Assembly: GCA_011050235.1 (NCBI GenBank)
Contig: DRGC01000082.1
Coordinates: forward strand, 1 to 55,292
From: Phycisphaerae bacterium
GTDB taxonomy: Bacteria; Planctomycetota; Phycisphaerae; SM23-33
Direction of reading: 5' to 3'
Length of the DNA stretch: 55,292 nt
Under the pieces are notes generated by a model that saw nothing but the letters and a program-made list of their open reading frames with translations, did not search any database and was not told the origin of the DNA. The position numbers and the translations under genes were made by a program. Positions 1-43,971 of this stretch are shown piece after piece; position 1 is the stretch's first letter, and each line of letters begins with the position of its first letter.

Positions 1-1999
1 ACTGGGACCAGAACCGCACATAGGGGCTGTCGGCGCCCGTCGCCTTCATCGGCAGGTCCCCCTGCCACGTCGTATCGGCCGTGAACGCCGCAGAGCGCCC
101 GGCCCCGTACGACTGGACGGCCAAAACCACCAGCGGCCCGGCGGCGTTGGCCTCGGTGGGGTGAACGGCCAGCACCGTCGCGGCGGGCTTGGCCCCGACG
201 ACGCCCGAACATCCGCGAAGCGCCGCCAAGTCGCCCTCGGCCGCTCGGCCGTCGGCGCCGGCGAAGAAGTCCGTGATCCCCCGCAAGATGGGGTGCGCAT
301 CGCCGGCCGCCGTCAAACGCAGCCCAAACGGCGCTGTGACCGAAGCGGTCTCCCGCGACCCCATGTGCACGGGCAAAGCGTCTTCCACGGCCGTCCCGCC
401 GTAGCCGCCCGGGCCGAAACTGCTCGTCCCGCCCAGCATCACCAGCCCGCCGCCGCGGTCGACGAACGCCTCCAGTCGCTTCAGGGCGGTCGCCTCCCAA
501 AAGAGCTTGTCCAGGTCGCTCAGAATGATCACATCGAACATTGCGAAATCCGCCTCGCTGGCCGGCAGAGAGGCAAGGGGCTTGTCGCCGATGCGGCCCC
601 GCGCCCAGAACCGGCGGTCGCGGATGCGGACCAGCGAGATCAGCTCAATGTTGGGGTCGCTGTCCAGATGGCGGCGGAGGTACTTGTACTCCGCCCGGAC
701 CGTGCCCTCGATGTACAACACGCGAATCTTCGGGTGCGTCACCAGCACATGGACGATCGCTTCGTTGTCGTCGCTGATGATCTCTCCGTCGCCGGGGGGG
801 ATCGCAACTCGCAGCTCGACCACCGGCGATGGGGCCGACGTTGAACCGTCGTCGCCGGGGCGATCCTTGGGCGTCCAGTCCAGCGTGACGGTTCTTGTGG
901 CGTCCGGCTGGTCGGTCCATATCCCCTGGACCAGCAGCGGCGTTGGGTCCATGCCTTCAAACAGGCGGACCTCGGCTGGGGTGTTGGCCCAATGGGTCAT
1001 TCGGACTGTAAGTTTGATAGTTGCGGCAACATTCGCCGCGGCCGTCAGAGGCGCATCGACCGAGACGATCTCAATGTTTCGCCGGGCTGTCGGCGGCTCC
1101 GTCAGAGCGCCCACGCCAAGGGTGTAGATCGGCGCGCGAGCTTCTGCGGCGGCCTGCAGGATGTCTTCGGGCCCGTTATGGTTGCCATCGGTGATCAGCA
1201 GGATGGCCCTGGGCCGGCGGCGGGCGCTGTGGGCGGCCATTCGAATTGCAGCGGCCAGATCGGTCCGGTCCGTACCGTCCCCGCGAGGGGACAACTCCGC
1301 CAGCTCCGCCAGAGCGGCGACCCTCCGCGGCGCAGCAGCGAAGTGGCCCCAGATCGGGCGATAGGTCTGCTCGATGCGCACTCGCTGCGAGGCCAGCATC
1401 TCCAGCGCTTGCGTGTACCGCTCGGGCGAGGCGCCGTCGGTCGCCGCCATCGAGGCGGATCGGTCCACGAAGATGCTCAGCAGCGGCTTGAGCGCTTCAC
1501 CCGTCGGCAACATCGCCACTGCCGGCTGCAGCAGAACCGTCAGCAGCGCCCCAATAGCCAGCGACCGCAGCGCCATCAGCGCCGTCAGGCGCCCCAAGCC
1601 CAGCCGCTCGCTCGCGCCGGCATAGAACACCCCGACGGCCATAGCGACCTGCATCCCCGCCAGCGCCGCCAGTACGACCGGTTGCGACACCCCGGCCGCG
1701 GCCACGACGCCCGCCGCGATCGTCAGCGCTGCCGCCGCCGCCACCGCCGACAGCCACGCGTGTCGGCCGCCGCGCTTGTCGCCACTGCGGTATCGTCGCC
1801 CGGCCTCGAGGAGCATGACGGGGACGAACACAACAGGCGTTAGCGCAGCGGCCAGCACGACCACGCCCGATCGCCACTGGCGGGCCGTTATCTGTCGCAC
1901 CGCCAGGCCCACCAGCAGCAGCGTCGCCGCCGCCAGCAACCCCGCCAGCAGGAGGCCGTTCTGGCTGCCCTGAAATTGCAGTGACATCGTCGCAATCAT
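1..1999 (-). CDS. VWA-domain membrane protein with glutamine-amidotransferase-like C-terminal region (partial)
   Basis: An open frame runs from ATG at 1999 to the window edge (666 codons, stop not seen). About five hydrophobic segments fill residues 1-165. A von Willebrand A domain begins near residue 173 with the MIDAS motif DRSASMAATD, and ILLITDGNHNG lies near residue 271. A Rossmann-like region from about residue 420 contains KIRVLYIEGTVRAEYKYLRR and, near 520, GGGLVMLGGTSSFGPGGYGG, as in the amidotransferase-like domain of planctomycetal VWA proteins. That family usually sits beside MoxR-type ATPases and is membrane-anchored with a periplasmic C-terminal part. Its exact role is unknown. 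An in-frame ATG at 1987 is an alternative start; neither has a clear ribosome binding site. Any MoxR partner is not upstream here, where a PHP gene lies 84 bp away. Confidence 0.85.
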   Translation of the reverse strand, partial: MIATMSLQFQGSQNGLLLAGLLAAATLLLVGLAVRQITARQWRSGVVVLAAALTPVVFVPVMLLEAGRRYRSGDKRGGRHAWLSAVAAAAALTIAAGVVAAAGVSQPVVLAALAGMQVAMAVGVFYAGASERLGLGRLTALMALRSLAIGALLTVLLQPAVAMLPTGEALKPLLSIFVDRSASMAATDGASPERYTQALEMLASQRVRIEQTYRPIWGHFAAAPRRVAALAELAELSPRGDGTDRTDLAAAIRMAAHSARRRPRAILLITDGNHNGPEDILQAAAEARAPIYTLGVGALTEPPTARRNIEIVSVDAPLTAAANVAATIKLTVRMTHWANTPAEVRLFEGMDPTPLLVQGIWTDQPDATRTVTLDWTPKDRPGDDGSTSAPSPVVELRVAIPPGDGEIISDDNEAIVHVLVTHPKIRVLYIEGTVRAEYKYLRRHLDSDPNIELISLVRIRDRRFWARGRIGDKPLASLPASEADFAMFDVIILSDLDKLFWEATALKRLEAFVDRGGGLVMLGGTSSFGPGGYGGTAVEDALPVHMGSRETASVTAPFGLRLTAAGDAHPILRGITDFFAGADGRAAEGDLAALRGCSGVVGAKPAATVLAVHPTEANAAGPLVVLAVQSYGAGRSAAFTADTTWQGDLPMKATGADSPYVRFWSQ

Positions 2000-12483: not shown

Positions 12484-12511
12484 TTGACGGGGTCAGGGCG
12501 ATCTCTATAAT
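12484..12511 (+). promoter_or_regulatory. strong sigma70-type promoter upstream of nusA
   Basis: TTGACG at 12484-12489 and a perfect TATAAT at 12506-12511 with a 16-base spacer: one of the best promoter matches noticed in the window. It lies about 415 bp before nusA, with an intrinsic terminator in between, so its main product may be the short noncoding transcript, with read-through into nusA. Confidence 0.7.
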
Positions 12512-12517
12512 CACGTA

Positions 12518-12874
12518 ACATATGGTGACCACGGGTACGGTATACCCGTGGCGGCCCGACGGGCGAGCGCCCTCGCCAGCCGGCAAGGGTAGGTCTATCG
12601 CCGGGCCCAGAAGGACGTTGCGATGAATTGCTTTTCAAGCCGGCAGTTGCGGCCGAGCCGCGCATAGCGATGGATCGGCAACGGTGAAACGGGCGCAGCC
12701 CATTGTGGTTGGGCAGGGCCGAGGAAGGCTCGTCGGGATAGGTCCCCCCGGCTGAGCGGCGGAGCCGGCATGGCTGTTGGCGGCGCCGGGCGTTGGGATT
12801 GGCCCGGAGATGCCGCCGCAGCCGCTGCCGAAGCGAGGGCGGCTTGGAGAGCGGGCGAGACAACCCGCTTTTTT
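12518..12874 (+). ncRNA. candidate structured noncoding RNA or nusA-operon leader
   Basis: A stretch of about 355 nt lies between a strong promoter and an intrinsic terminator and holds no credible gene. It shows local hairpins: CCACGGGTA (from 12531) pairs with TACCCGTGG nearby, GGCGAG with CTCGCC around 12560-12577, and the terminator stem closes it. I looked for the conserved cores of RNase P RNA (GAGGAAAGTC), tmRNA, 6S and SRP RNA (GGAAGGAAGCA) and did not find them. A 14-codon ORF begins with ATG near 12622 and could be a leader peptide. Two readings are open: an independent small RNA, or a long attenuating leader controlling the nusA-infB operon. NusA autoregulation by its leader is known in other bacteria, but this sequence is not homologous by eye to any leader I know. 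Confidence 0.45.
12850..12874 (+). terminator. intrinsic terminator before nusA
   Basis: AGCGGG (12850-12855) and CCCGCT (12864-12869) form a six-pair stem with an eight-base loop, followed by a run of T to 12874. It ends about 50 bp before the nusA ATG. Confidence 0.75.
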
Positions 12875-12925
12875 GTTGGAATGAAAAGGCTGCCTCTGTG
12901 GCGGCGACAGCCAGGATATTGCCAG

Positions 12926-14374
12926 ATGAACCAAGAGCTAATACGGATCGTCGAGGCCATCGCCCGCGACAAGAACATCGACGCGGAGGCTGTCTACGAA
13001 GACCTCGAAGCGGCGATCGGCTCGGCCATGCACAAGGTGCACCCCGACACCGAAGATATCGTCGTACAGATCGATCGATCCAGCGGCGAGATCACCTCAG
13101 TGGTGGACGGCGAGTCGGTGAATATTCGCGGACACCTGGGCCGCATCGCCGCCCAGACCGCCAAGCAGGTGATCATCCAACGCATTCGCGAGGCCGAGCG
13201 CGGCAGTATCTTCGAGGAGTTCCGCGAGCGCCGCGGCGAGATCGTCACCGGTCGGGCCAGCCGATGGGAGGGCGGCATGCTGGTCGTCGAGGTCGAGCGC
13301 ACCGAGGCGCTGCTGCCCAAGAGCGAGCAGATCCCGGGCGAATCCTACCTGCCCGACGATCGCGTTCGGGCGATGATCCTCGACGTTCGCGACGAGCCCG
13401 GGCAGGTCAAGATCATCCTGTCGCGCACGCACCCGGACTTCATCCGTGTGCTGTTCGAGATGGAAGTCCCTGAAGTCGCCGAGGAGATCATCGAGATTCG
13501 GGCCATGGCGCGCGAGGCCGGCTACCGGACGAAGGTGGCCGTCAACAGCCTCGACCCGAAGGTCGATCCGGTCGGCGCGTGCGTAGGCATTCGGGGCAGC
13601 CGAATCAAGAACATCGTCGAGGAACTGGGCGGCGAGAAGATCGATATTGTTCGCTGGAACGACTCGTCGCAGATCCTGATCGCCAACGCGCTGAAGCCCG
13701 CCGAGGTGGCCCAGATCGCCCTGTGCTTTGAGCTGGGGCGGGCGACCGTTGTCGTCACAGAGGACCAGTTGTCCCTGGCGATCGGCAAACGCGGACAGAA
13801 TGTTCGCCTGGCGGCCAGGCTGACCCGTTGGGACGTGGATATCCTCACCCCGACCGAGTTCAACGCCGGCTTGGATGTCCTGGAAAGGGTCCTGCGAGAA
13901 GTCGAGGGTGTGGACTCGACGGTGGTTGACCAGATTGTGGCGATGGGCATGATCAGCGTGCTGGATGTCGAAGAGGTTGGCCTCGACCCGTTGCTCAACG
14001 AACTGAAGATGGACCGCGACCTCGCTCAGCGGATTATCGTACACTGCGCCGAGCAGGCGAAGAAGATCGCCGAAGAGCAGGCCGCCAAACAGGCCGCCGA
14101 AGCAGAGGGCGCCCAGTCAGGCGGCGACGAGTCGGCCGCTGCCGATGTCGCCGAAGAGCCTGCCGCCGCTGCTGGCGAGCCGGTCGCCCCTGCAGCGGAC
14201 GAGACGTCCGATGACGTCCCGTCGGCCGAGCCGCCCAGCGAACCAACGGACACCTCAGTGCCCGACGTACAGGCCGCGGCCGGGGATGCCTCCGCCGAGG
14301 CCGGCGGCATTTCGGGCCCACAAGCCGACAACTCGCAAGCCGACGAGTCGGACGACGAGACCACTGTAACGTAA
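12926..14374 (+). CDS. nusA: transcription termination/antitermination factor NusA
   Basis: A 482-residue NusA that binds RNA polymerase and nascent RNA to modulate pausing, termination and antitermination. MNQELIRIVEAIARDKNIDA begins the N-terminal polymerase-binding domain (to about 125). The S1 domain covers about 130-200, then two KH domains with VGACVGIRGSRIKNIVEELG and LSLAIGKRGQNVRLAARLTR. A helix-hairpin-helix-like segment spans about 325-385. The last 90 residues are a low-complexity acidic tail rich in Ala, Glu, Asp and Pro that standard NusA lacks. ATG at 12926 is the conserved start. No rimP gene precedes it, unlike many bacteria; infB follows after 21 bp. Confidence 0.96.
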   Translation: MNQELIRIVEAIARDKNIDAEAVYEDLEAAIGSAMHKVHPDTEDIVVQIDRSSGEITSVVDGESVNIRGHLGRIAAQTAKQVIIQRIREAERGSIFEEFRERRGEIVTGRASRWEGGMLVVEVERTEALLPKSEQIPGESYLPDDRVRAMILDVRDEPGQVKIILSRTHPDFIRVLFEMEVPEVAEEIIEIRAMAREAGYRTKVAVNSLDPKVDPVGACVGIRGSRIKNIVEELGGEKIDIVRWNDSSQILIANALKPAEVAQIALCFELGRATVVVTEDQLSLAIGKRGQNVRLAARLTRWDVDILTPTEFNAGLDVLERVLREVEGVDSTVVDQIVAMGMISVLDVEEVGLDPLLNELKMDRDLAQRIIVHCAEQAKKIAEEQAAKQAAEAEGAQSGGDESAAADVAEEPAAAAGEPVAPAADETSDDVPSAEPPSEPTDTSVPDVQAAAGDASAEAGGISGPQADNSQADESDDETTVT

Positions 14375-14395: not shown

Positions 14396-17089
14396 TTGGC
14401 TACTCGCGTTTTTGAAATTGCCAGAGAACTTGGGGTCACCAGCAAGGTGGTGTTGGCCAAATGCCGCGCCGAAGGGCTGGAGATCAAGAATCATATGTCC
14501 ACGGTCTCGGCCGGACTTGAAGCCACGATTCGCGAGTGGTTCAGTGAGGGGGAGTCGTCGCGCACTGCCGTTGAGACAAGCACGCACGTCGATCTGGACA
14601 CGGCCCGAAAGGAAGCAAAGAAAGTTCGTCGCCGGCCCAGAAAGAAGGCAACGGCGGACAAGGCCGACGACAAAACATCCGCCCTAGAGGCGCCCGTTGA
14701 AACGCCGGTTGCCCAACAGCCGCCGATAACCGAGACCGAGGCTGCCGCGCCGACGGAAGGCGCCCAAGTCGCTGAGAGTGTGGAGACGATTGAACCGGTC
14801 GTCGAGGCGCCGGTCGAATCAGCTGCCGAAGGGGCCCCGAAGGCCAAGAAGGCGAAGAAGACCAAGAAGGTAGCTAAGAAAAAGCCGAAGGATGAAGCCG
14901 ACGAGAGACCCGAGGACGTCAAACCGGCCGGCCCGCAGGTCGTGCCCGCGCCGGCCAGCCTGAAAGGCCCCCGGGTCGTCCGATACGAAGAGCCCGAACC
15001 GGACTGGAAACGTCCGGCTCGCCCGGCCCGCTTGCGTCCAGCGGCCGCGGCCGGGCCCGCCACAGCCGGCGTTGGCGCCCCGAGCCGACGCGGCAAACCG
15101 GCCGAGCCCGGAAAAGACGAGTCGCCTCGCGGCAAAGAGACCAAACGTCGCAGCCCGCGGCGGCGAGCGGGCCGCACCGCCGATGGCGGCGGCGGCGCGC
15201 GGGCTCGCGAGTGGCGCAATGCCGATCTGACCGAGCGATCCCAGCGCCTGGCGGCAGCTGCCGGCGGCGGGCTGCGACGTCACCGGGCGGCTGTCTCGCG
15301 GGGAGGCGGCGGGATGGCTGTCGCCAAGACCGGGCCGGTGGAAATCGGCGAACCCATCACCATCAAGAGTCTCTCTGCCGCTACCGGGCTCAAAGCCACC
15401 GTGATCATCCGCAAACTGATGGAAGCGGGCGTGATGGCGACGATGAATCAGAGCATCTCGACGGAGGTAGCCGAAGTGGCCGTGGTCGATTTCGGCATCG
15501 TCCTGACGGTCAATAAGGCCACCACCGACGAAGAGCAACTTCTCGATCATCTCCAGCAGCGCGAGAAGGGCGAGCAGGTCAACCGCGCCCCGGTCGTGAC
15601 GTTCCTGGGTCATGTCGACCACGGAAAGACATCGCTGCTGGACGCCATCCGCCAGACCACCGTCGCCGAAGGCGAGGCGGGCGGGATCACCCAGCACATC
15701 GGCGCGTATCGCTATGATCTCGAAGACAAGCACGTGGTGTTCCTGGACACGCCGGGCCACGAGGCGTTCACCGCCATGCGGGCCCGCGGGGCCAACATGA
15801 CCGACGTCGTCGTCCTGGTCGTCGCCGCCGATGACGGCGTGATGCCCCAGACCGCCGAGGCCATCAGCCACGCCAAGGCCGCCAACGTGCCCATCGTCGT
15901 TGCGCTCAACAAGATCGACCTGCCCAACGCCAACATCCAGCGGGTCATGGGGCAATTGGCCGAACACGATCTCCAGCCGCGTGAATGGGGCGGACAGACC
16001 GAGGTCCTCCAGACCAGCGCCATCACCGGCGAGGGAATCGACACGCTCGTCGAGACGCTCTCGCTGGAGGCCGAACTGCTCGAACTGCAGGCCGAAATCG
16101 ACGCCCCGGCGGGTGGGTACGTGATTGAATCCGAGATGGACCCCGGCCGCGGCGTTGTGGCTCGCCTGTTGATCCTGGATGGCACGTTGAAGGTGGGCGA
16201 CGTCGTCCTGGCGGGACTGGGCTTTGGACGCGTGCGGGCCATGATCGACAGTCACGGCGAGTCGGTCCAGAGCGCCCCACCGGCGACGCCTGTGGAAGTA
16301 TCCGGCCTGAACGAAGTGCCCGAGGCGGGCGACAAGTTTTACGTGATCGACACGCTGGACAAGGCTCGCACCGTCGCCGAAGAGCGTCGCCAGCAGGCTC
16401 GGACCCGGGCGCTGGCCGCTCCGCCGCCGGTGTCGCTGGAGGGCCTGTGGTCGCAGATTCAGGAAGGGCGGATCACCGACGTGCCCCTGATCGTCAAGGC
16501 CGACGTGCAGGGCTCGCTCGAAGCGCTGATCGGCTCGCTGAACAAGCTCAGCACCGATGAAGTGCGCGTCAACATCCTACACACGGGCGTGGGCGGCATC
16601 AGCAGCGGCGACGTGGCCTTGGCCGCAGCGTCCAGTGCGATCATTGTCGGGTTCAACGTCGTGCCCGCCGCCGGCGCCCGAGCCAAAGCGGAGGAAGACG
16701 GTGTGGACGTGCGGATGTATCGGGTCATCTACGATCTGATCGATGACATTACGCGCGTCCTGGAAAAGGGCCTGGCGCCGGAGATTCGGGAAGAATCGCT
16801 CGGCCGGGCGCAGGTGCGGCAGGTATTCAAGGTTTCGCGCGTCGGCACGATCGCCGGCTGTTTCGTCACCGACGGCCGGGCCGTCCGCAATGCGCTGGTG
16901 CGAATTATCCGCGAGAATGTCGTGATCGGAGATGAACGAACGCTCGATAGCCTCAAGCGGTTCAAGGACGACGCCCGCGAAGTTCGGGCCGGCATGGAGT
17001 GCGGCCTGAGAATCATCGACTACGACGACGTCAAGGAAGGCGACGAACTGGAGTTCTACCAACGCGTGGAGATCGAGCGCAAGCTCTAA
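14396..17089 (+). CDS. infB: translation initiation factor IF-2
   Basis: An 897-residue GTPase that brings fMet-tRNA to the 30S subunit and promotes subunit joining. The start is TTG at 14396, with GGAG six bases upstream; it gives MATRVFEIARELGVTSKVVL, the first IF2-N domain. A long Lys/Pro/Ala-rich linker follows (about 80-310), then a second IF2-N-like domain (TIKSLSAATGLKATVIIRKL, about 320). The GTPase has G1 GHVDHGKTS near 404, G3 DTPGHE, G4 NKID and G5 SA, followed by the beta-barrel, the IF2 domain (VPLIVKADVQGSLEALIGSL) and the C-terminal domain ending in VEIERKL. Shorter products from internal starts are known for IF2 and are possible here. Classic nusA-infB order. Confidence 0.97.
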   Translation: MATRVFEIARELGVTSKVVLAKCRAEGLEIKNHMSTVSAGLEATIREWFSEGESSRTAVETSTHVDLDTARKEAKKVRRRPRKKATADKADDKTSALEAPVETPVAQQPPITETEAAAPTEGAQVAESVETIEPVVEAPVESAAEGAPKAKKAKKTKKVAKKKPKDEADERPEDVKPAGPQVVPAPASLKGPRVVRYEEPEPDWKRPARPARLRPAAAAGPATAGVGAPSRRGKPAEPGKDESPRGKETKRRSPRRRAGRTADGGGGARAREWRNADLTERSQRLAAAAGGGLRRHRAAVSRGGGGMAVAKTGPVEIGEPITIKSLSAATGLKATVIIRKLMEAGVMATMNQSISTEVAEVAVVDFGIVLTVNKATTDEEQLLDHLQQREKGEQVNRAPVVTFLGHVDHGKTSLLDAIRQTTVAEGEAGGITQHIGAYRYDLEDKHVVFLDTPGHEAFTAMRARGANMTDVVVLVVAADDGVMPQTAEAISHAKAANVPIVVALNKIDLPNANIQRVMGQLAEHDLQPREWGGQTEVLQTSAITGEGIDTLVETLSLEAELLELQAEIDAPAGGYVIESEMDPGRGVVARLLILDGTLKVGDVVLAGLGFGRVRAMIDSHGESVQSAPPATPVEVSGLNEVPEAGDKFYVIDTLDKARTVAEERRQQARTRALAAPPPVSLEGLWSQIQEGRITDVPLIVKADVQGSLEALIGSLNKLSTDEVRVNILHTGVGGISSGDVALAAASSAIIVGFNVVPAAGARAKAEEDGVDVRMYRVIYDLIDDITRVLEKGLAPEIREESLGRAQVRQVFKVSRVGTIAGCFVTDGRAVRNALVRIIRENVVIGDERTLDSLKRFKDDAREVRAGMECGLRIIDYDDVKEGDELEFYQRVEIERKL

Positions 17090-17130: not shown

Positions 17131-17418
17131 ATGGCGACGACGGTAGGATTGGTGCATCTGGAACTGAACGTGGTCCAGGCGACCAGCCTCAAGGACAAGC
17201 GGCGCGTGATCAAGAGCTTCAAAGACCGTCTGGTCGCAAAACACAATGTCTCCGTGGCCGAAGTGGACGGACTGGACAGTCTCCGCCGGGCCGTGTTGGC
17301 TGTCGTGATGGTCGGCAACGACCGGCGCTATGTCGAAGGCGCCCTGCAGCAGATTGTCAACGCCGCCGCCCGCCATCGGGACATGATTCTAACGGGGCAC
17401 GAGGTCCAGTGGCTGTAA
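17131..17418 (+). CDS. ylxP: DUF503 family protein (YlxP-like)
   Basis: A 95-residue protein of the DUF503 family: LKDKRRVIKSFKDRLVAKHN in the first half, then VAEVDGLDSLRRAVLAVVMV. The same position between infB and rbfA is held by ylxP in Bacillus subtilis, so synteny supports the assignment. Homologues are small ferredoxin-fold proteins linked to ribosome assembly; a biochemical function is not established. Start at ATG 17131, 41 bp after infB, and the frame is open upstream, but only this start matches the family. Confidence 0.9.
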   Translation: MATTVGLVHLELNVVQATSLKDKRRVIKSFKDRLVAKHNVSVAEVDGLDSLRRAVLAVVMVGNDRRYVEGALQQIVNAAARHRDMILTGHEVQWL

Positions 17419-17451: not shown

Positions 17452-17868
17452 ATGAGTCGGCGAACAGAACGTGTCGGTAATCTGCTTCGGAACACCATCG
17501 CGGAGGTGCTGGCCCGGAAGATATCCGATCCACGGGTCGATCCGGGCCGCACGTCCATCACGCGCGTGGAGGTCACCGAAGACCTGCTGGCCGCCCGTGT
17601 GTTCGTGTCGGTGATGGCCGAACCGCCCGAGCAGCGCAATACGCTTCGGGCGCTGCAGCACGCCGCCGGGCACATTCAGGAACTGGTCACGCGGCAGATT
17701 ACATTGAGACATATGCCGCAACTGACGTTTGTGGCGGATGAACGATTCAAGAAAACCATGAAAACCCTTACGCTGATTCAGCAGGCGATGGATGAGATTC
17801 GCCAAAAAGAGCAGGCCTCGTCGGCGCCGGACGCTCCTCCCGGCGACCCCGACAAGGCAAGCGTGTGA
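17452..17868 (+). CDS. rbfA: ribosome-binding factor A
   Basis: A 138-residue KH-like protein that binds the 30S subunit during 16S rRNA maturation. MSRRTERVGNLLRNTIAEVL opens the fold; ITRVEVTEDLLAARVFVSVM and LRALQHAAGHIQELVTRQI carry the central features, and LRHMPQLTFVADERF matches the conserved C-terminal stretch. About 20 extra residues at the C-terminus are charged and probably flexible. It follows ylxP by 33 bp and precedes the next gene by 9 bp, the usual place for rbfA behind infB. truB and ribF, which often come next, are absent. Confidence 0.95.
   Translation: MSRRTERVGNLLRNTIAEVLARKISDPRVDPGRTSITRVEVTEDLLAARVFVSVMAEPPEQRNTLRALQHAAGHIQELVTRQITLRHMPQLTFVADERFKKTMKTLTLIQQAMDEIRQKEQASSAPDAPPGDPDKASV

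Positions 17869-43899: not shown

Positions 43900-43971
<72 letters not shown>

Follow-up and report, generated by a model that had tools for sequence, protein, structure and literature searches.

The 5' leader of the nusA-infB operon in Phycisphaerae: a nusA-specific terminator and a probable transcription attenuator

Results

The nusA locus

The window, that is, the whole 55,292-nucleotide stretch of Phycisphaerae DNA analyzed here, contains nusA as the first gene of an operon with the order nusA-infB-DUF503-rbfA; serS is divergent. Ahead of nusA, a promoter and an intrinsic terminator bracket about 355 nt in which no conventional gene worth keeping was found on either strand. The features of the locus are as follows.

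12484-12511, + strand: leader promoter, TTGACG-16 bp-TATAAT, 11 of 12 consensus positions
12518-12874, + strand: predicted leader RNA, ~357 nt if terminated, bounded by promoter and terminator
12529-12551, + strand: strong 5' hairpin, CCACGGGTA-CGGTA-TACCCGTGG, in the MFE and centroid structures of the window only
12609-12615 and 12623-12667, + strand: SD sequence AGAAGGA and 14-codon leader ORF, MNCFSSRQLRPSRA followed by a stop, read from the sequence
12634-12739, + strand: putative diverged counterpart of the family core, from covariance models (6.6 and 7.4 bits, not significant)
12849-12874, + strand: nusA-specific intrinsic terminator (predicted attenuator), GAGCGGG-C..A-CCCGCTTTTTT, the sole genome-wide pattern match (12850-12874)
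12926-14374, + strand: nusA (NusA_N, S1 and KH domains; NCBIfam TIGR01953 NusA)
14396-17089, + strand: infB, encoding IF2 (Pfam IF-2, GTP_EFTU, IF2_N)
17143-17418, + strand: DUF503 gene (Pfam DUF503)
17452-17868, + strand: rbfA (Pfam RBFA)

The near-consensus promoter and the terminator had been noticed in an earlier, sequence-only reading of this DNA, and both are confirmed as real, far above the chance level. A scan of 2 kb yielded one promoter-like site of this quality versus 0.1 expected, and the terminator (GAGCGGGCGAGACAACCCGCTTTTTT, about 12849-12874) consists of a GCGGGC..ACCCGC stem and T6, with A instead of g before the CCC and a folding energy of about -11.6 to -13.2 kcal/mol. Judging from the promoter, transcription would start near 12518. 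The fold of the predicted RNA is more stable than those of dinucleotide shuffles (z = -3.2, with none of 100 shuffles as good). The claim of the same reading that the segment holds no credible gene stands for conventional genes but overlooks the 14-codon ORF, which has a good SD sequence and matches the short ORFs of other leaders in position. An SD-led ATG at 12770 also opens a frame that runs across the terminator into nusA, yielding a 534-codon ORF (12770-14374). An N-terminal extension of NusA from this start was considered and rejected: the length of the in-frame open stretch in relatives is anywhere between 0 and 89 codons, and the long ORF, being unconserved, is probably an accident of GC-rich sequence.

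The Rfam search of the segment that the earlier reading had proposed returned no match at the gathering level to known riboswitches, T-boxes, r-protein leaders, RNase P, tmRNA, 6S or SRP RNA, in agreement with its statement that the last four are absent, and below threshold only chance-level matches. RNase P and 6S RNA were rejected as identities of the segment; the RNase P of this genome lies elsewhere (G000:C29), as does a sub-threshold 6S candidate (G000:C48:14610-14766, 38.2 bits against a threshold of 46.4, E 5e-6). The only gathering-level Rfam match in the window is a tRNA gene at 43900-43971. No tRNA or tmRNA was found in the nusA leaders; in one relative, L042, a single tRNA-Val lies outside the nusA leader, and in another, L059, two matches to Acido-Lenti-1 RNA exceed the gathering threshold near the nusA locus (240-294, minus strand, and 429-473, plus strand). 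A blastn search with the leader produced only short, GC-rich chance matches, a misleading result since the leaders diverge fast, and no closer relatives were found in another genome collection.

A terminator dedicated to nusA

We identified nusA in 117 of 120 relatives, with one layout upstream of it: a promoter or an upstream gene, followed by the leader, the terminator and nusA. The terminator is present in all 34 sequences of the family and order and in 68 of 90 sequences overall, versus 2.7 in shuffles; 53 of these 68 contain a GGG..CCC stem, and the terminator is the only structure that RNAalifold found when applied to the entire leader. Genome-wide scans with the pattern AGYGGGN{3,12}CCCRCTTTTTT gave one match per genome in 25 of the 36 relatives, the window included, and comparison with nusA positions placed all 25 in the nusA leader. 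A slightly looser pattern, applied to the wider phylum, had 35 matches in 24 genomes, of which 13, including that of the window, are located no more than about 300 nt upstream of nusA; with this pattern, a terminator close to nusA was detected in other classes of the phylum as well.

The distance from the terminator to nusA is about 52 nt in the window and 24-114 nt across the family and order. A promoter with at least 9 of 12 consensus positions precedes the leader in 28 of the 34 family and order sequences; of the remaining six, five have an ABC-transporter gene directly upstream, and in the last one the upstream sequence is too short. Within the gap, a promoter-like site occurs in only 3 of the 34 sequences and is missing in 31, several gaps being too short to hold any promoter. 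Because the gap is this short and usually promoterless, nusA is presumably reached by read-through of the terminator in most of these sequences.

Overall, no conserved antiterminator pairing with the 5' arm of the terminator was detected (mean duplex z -0.28), the 3' strand of core helix P3 being among the candidate partners, and the switch may therefore be weak or operated by protein only. In four relatives (L052, L054, L057 and L058), ACCCACTTG, located ~100 nt before the terminator, perfectly complements the 5' arm; this CCCACTT complement is confined to a genus that carries ugpC upstream of nusA, where it is a possible local antiterminator.

A folded core in the leaders of relatives

A block of about 108 nt with five short helices aligns in the stand-alone leaders of the family. 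In an alignment not fitted to the structure, 75.9% of the cells are paired, versus at most 44% with the partners slid, a control that favors the model inasmuch as the helices were set by hand and tested afterwards on the sequences from which the structure was drawn. The covariation score is 0.245 versus 0.204 in shuffles, a value that 3 of 500 shuffles reach, and 11 pairs show double changes versus 5.8; helix 5 is weak (47% paired). A covariance model, R1, whose training leaders lack ugpC and do not include that of the window, recovers the non-training members L042 (33 bits) and L046 (27.5 bits), and others weakly. This conserved folded core, present in most of the relatives' leaders, is a new finding. 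By position and aligned motifs, 12634-12739 of the window appears to be homologous to it; because the scores of 6.6-7.4 bits are not significant, we do not claim membership for the window. Conservation and covariation in relatives, which the earlier reading had named as a check, are thus found for the terminator and for the core of the relatives, respectively, but the copy in the window is too diverged for significance.

That reading had left the choice between a separate small RNA and an attenuating leader. An independent trans-acting sRNA gene that merely adjoins nusA would account for the complete transcription unit, with its near-consensus promoter and strong terminator, for the covarying core, and for the best whole-genome matches of a second core model, which fall at the nusA-leader locus. 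These matches are mostly training members. Each confident one, however, is linked to nusA; moreover, the terminator sequence is found at nusA alone, and the gap, down to 24 nt, leaves nusA in most relatives without a recognizable promoter of its own. We rejected a separable sRNA unit on these grounds and consider this option quite unlikely; it is the attenuating leader that the nusA-specific, conserved terminator and the usually promoterless gap favor.

Minimal ORFs in the leaders

Many of the leaders contain very short ORFs. Of 89 leaders, 33 contain an SD-led ATG ORF of no more than three further codons, versus 3.5 in shuffles, and 23 have an AUG separated from the stop by one codon or none, versus 1.9; when the SD rule is made strict, 21 of 89 qualify versus 1.0 in shuffles (no more than 4 in any of 200), and the reverse strand has 0. 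Longer SD-led ORFs are found in 17 of 43 stand-alone leaders versus 4.7 in shuffles; the kinship of the sequences was not down-weighted in any of these counts, which accordingly do not represent independent events. The minimal ORFs lie 38-129 nt before the terminator. Their enrichment in nusA leaders, often as AUG-codon-stop, is new, and we found no report of start-stop ORFs in nusA leaders in the open-access literature. In another family of the phylum, two genomes (L212 and L215) share an identical SD sequence followed by an AUG-UAG start-stop ~282 nt before nusA.

It is conceivable that the leader is mainly a translational attenuator, in which ribosomes on the minimal ORFs would report initiation capacity, that is, IF2, and failed initiation would lead to read-through into nusA-infB. 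The strict enrichment, confined to the coding strand, the placement of the ORFs before the terminator and the position of infB directly after nusA all fit this scheme. Yet the leader of the window has no such mini-ORF, only the SD-led ORF of 14 codons, no conserved alternative structure joins a mini-ORF to the terminator, and the connection to IF2 is an inference only, so that we regard a mainly translational mechanism as rather improbable. In the attenuating leader that we prefer, translation would have a modulating part.

The upstream ugpC gene and the origin of the leader

In six members of the family and in many other Phycisphaerae, a gene for a UgpC/MalK-type ABC-transporter ATPase (NCBIfam UgpC, 486 bits) is located directly upstream of nusA. 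The same arrangement occurs at three loci of other classes, and for this reason the ugpC-nusA order looks ancestral. Where ugpC is present, the folded core overlaps its 3' coding end, and R1 matches the ugpC end of L065 (18.6 bits, E 0.004) and, weakly, those of L054 and L057. Conversely, a profile of the UgpC tail detects relics in the stand-alone leaders of L078 (52.5 bits), L056 (14.3), L061 (9.6), L059 (9.1) and L060 (6.7), versus 4.8 bits for the best of ten shuffled sets; in the leader of the window, this profile gives no significant relic. These ugpC 3'-end relics, found in some leaders, are likewise new and support, without proving, the retention of the ugpC tail in the leader after loss of the gene. 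Four leaders of family f17 (L091, L094, L102 and L111) contain a short ORF ending in VSRAxA or SRA before the stop, perhaps the re-started tail of a lost ugpC.

It is highly improbable that the terminator is an ordinary, non-regulatory one inherited from ugpC, with nusA under an unrecognized promoter: it could simply end the ugpC transcript in the many genomes, some of other classes, in which ugpC directly precedes nusA, but in each genome its sequence occurs at nusA alone, it was retained in relatives where ugpC is gone, and gaps of 24-45 nt could hardly, if at all, accommodate a promoter.

Discussion

Taken together, the sequence comparisons indicate that the segment is probably a transcription attenuator that forms the 5' leader of the nusA-infB-DUF503-rbfA operon, with feedback by NusA as the likeliest form of control. 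RNA polymerase would start near 12518 and transcribe a folded, partly translated leader up to the terminator at 12849-12874, where either a leader RNA of ~357 nt would be released or read-through would continue into nusA. The most likely effector, by analogy, is NusA itself, which would stimulate termination at its dedicated hairpin and so restrain its own synthesis, as reported for Bacillus subtilis, where NusA stimulates termination in its own leader in a negative autoregulatory loop (PMC12288461). Ribosomes on the short leader ORFs would probably modulate the decision at the terminator, and the terminated leader RNA, if stable, could have a function of its own.

The closest described counterpart is the rimP-leader, an operon-specific GGGc..gCCC terminator before rimP-nusA-infB, without a visible antiterminator, for which NusA was proposed as the regulator (Naville and Gautheret 2010, PMC2965389). 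The leaders analyzed here share with it a G-rich 5' arm and a C-rich 3' arm (GGGc..gCCC) with a U-tract before the nusA-infB operon, a terminator unlike the others of the genome, and a distance to the gene within 4-130 nt (~52 nt here). They differ in that they precede nusA-infB-DUF503-rbfA with no rimP found, in that A replaces g before CCC in the window, and in being longer, with SD-led short ORFs and, in relatives, the folded core. The Rfam model of the rimP-leader (RF01770, gathering threshold 47 bits) had no match above its cut-off in any of 60 genomes, including that of the window, nor in local scans. The segment had been described as occupying the place where rimP often sits; rimP is not merely displaced, there being no RimP_N (PF02576) match in the window's own genome and 35 relatives (0 of 36), compared with 10 of 14 control genomes, and RimP seems to be absent from this part of Phycisphaerae. 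Because the model cut-off failed and no RimP was found, we do not file the Planctomycetota leaders under RF01770; by their sequence features, they appear to work like the rimP-leader from outside that Rfam family.

The comparison extends to other systems in part. The 5' leader of the B. subtilis nusA operon likewise contains an intrinsic terminator but differs in gene order and leader sequence, and in the present case NusA feedback is a prediction. In Escherichia coli, the metY-rimP-nusA-infB leader contains the terminators t1 and t2, and NusA affects its own operon (PMC6511841); terminators before the first protein gene are common to both, whereas neither a tRNA gene nor rimP lies between promoter and nusA here. 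Ribosome profiling of E. coli and Campylobacter jejuni has revealed start-stop ORFs of 2-3 codons, which may act via ribosome occupancy (PMC11955535); ours are similarly minimal predicted ORFs that recur at the nusA leader across a bacterial class and are missing from the window.

A bolder version, which we deem unlikely, is that the nusA-infB operon of Phycisphaerae is controlled by a translation-sensing attenuator, with a leader derived from the 3' end of a lost gene and a ribosome on a start-stop ORF or ugpC relic reporting initiation capacity. If true, the genes for NusA and IF2 would be tuned by the very process that IF2 serves. With start-stop ORFs recurring at the nusA leader, the idea that ribosome occupancy acts in attenuation can be put to a direct test, and the relics of ugpC illustrate how the tail of a neighboring gene may become a regulatory leader. 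As for the attenuating leader that we favor, a terminator signature that is found once per genome, invariably at nusA, in a lineage with no RimP match suggests NusA, rather than RimP, as the likely effector in the old rimP-leader puzzle. Joint control of the operon for NusA and IF2, both core factors, is hardly known outside E. coli and Bacillus, and the leader described here very probably acts as an on/off valve that sets their supply in these Planctomycetota.
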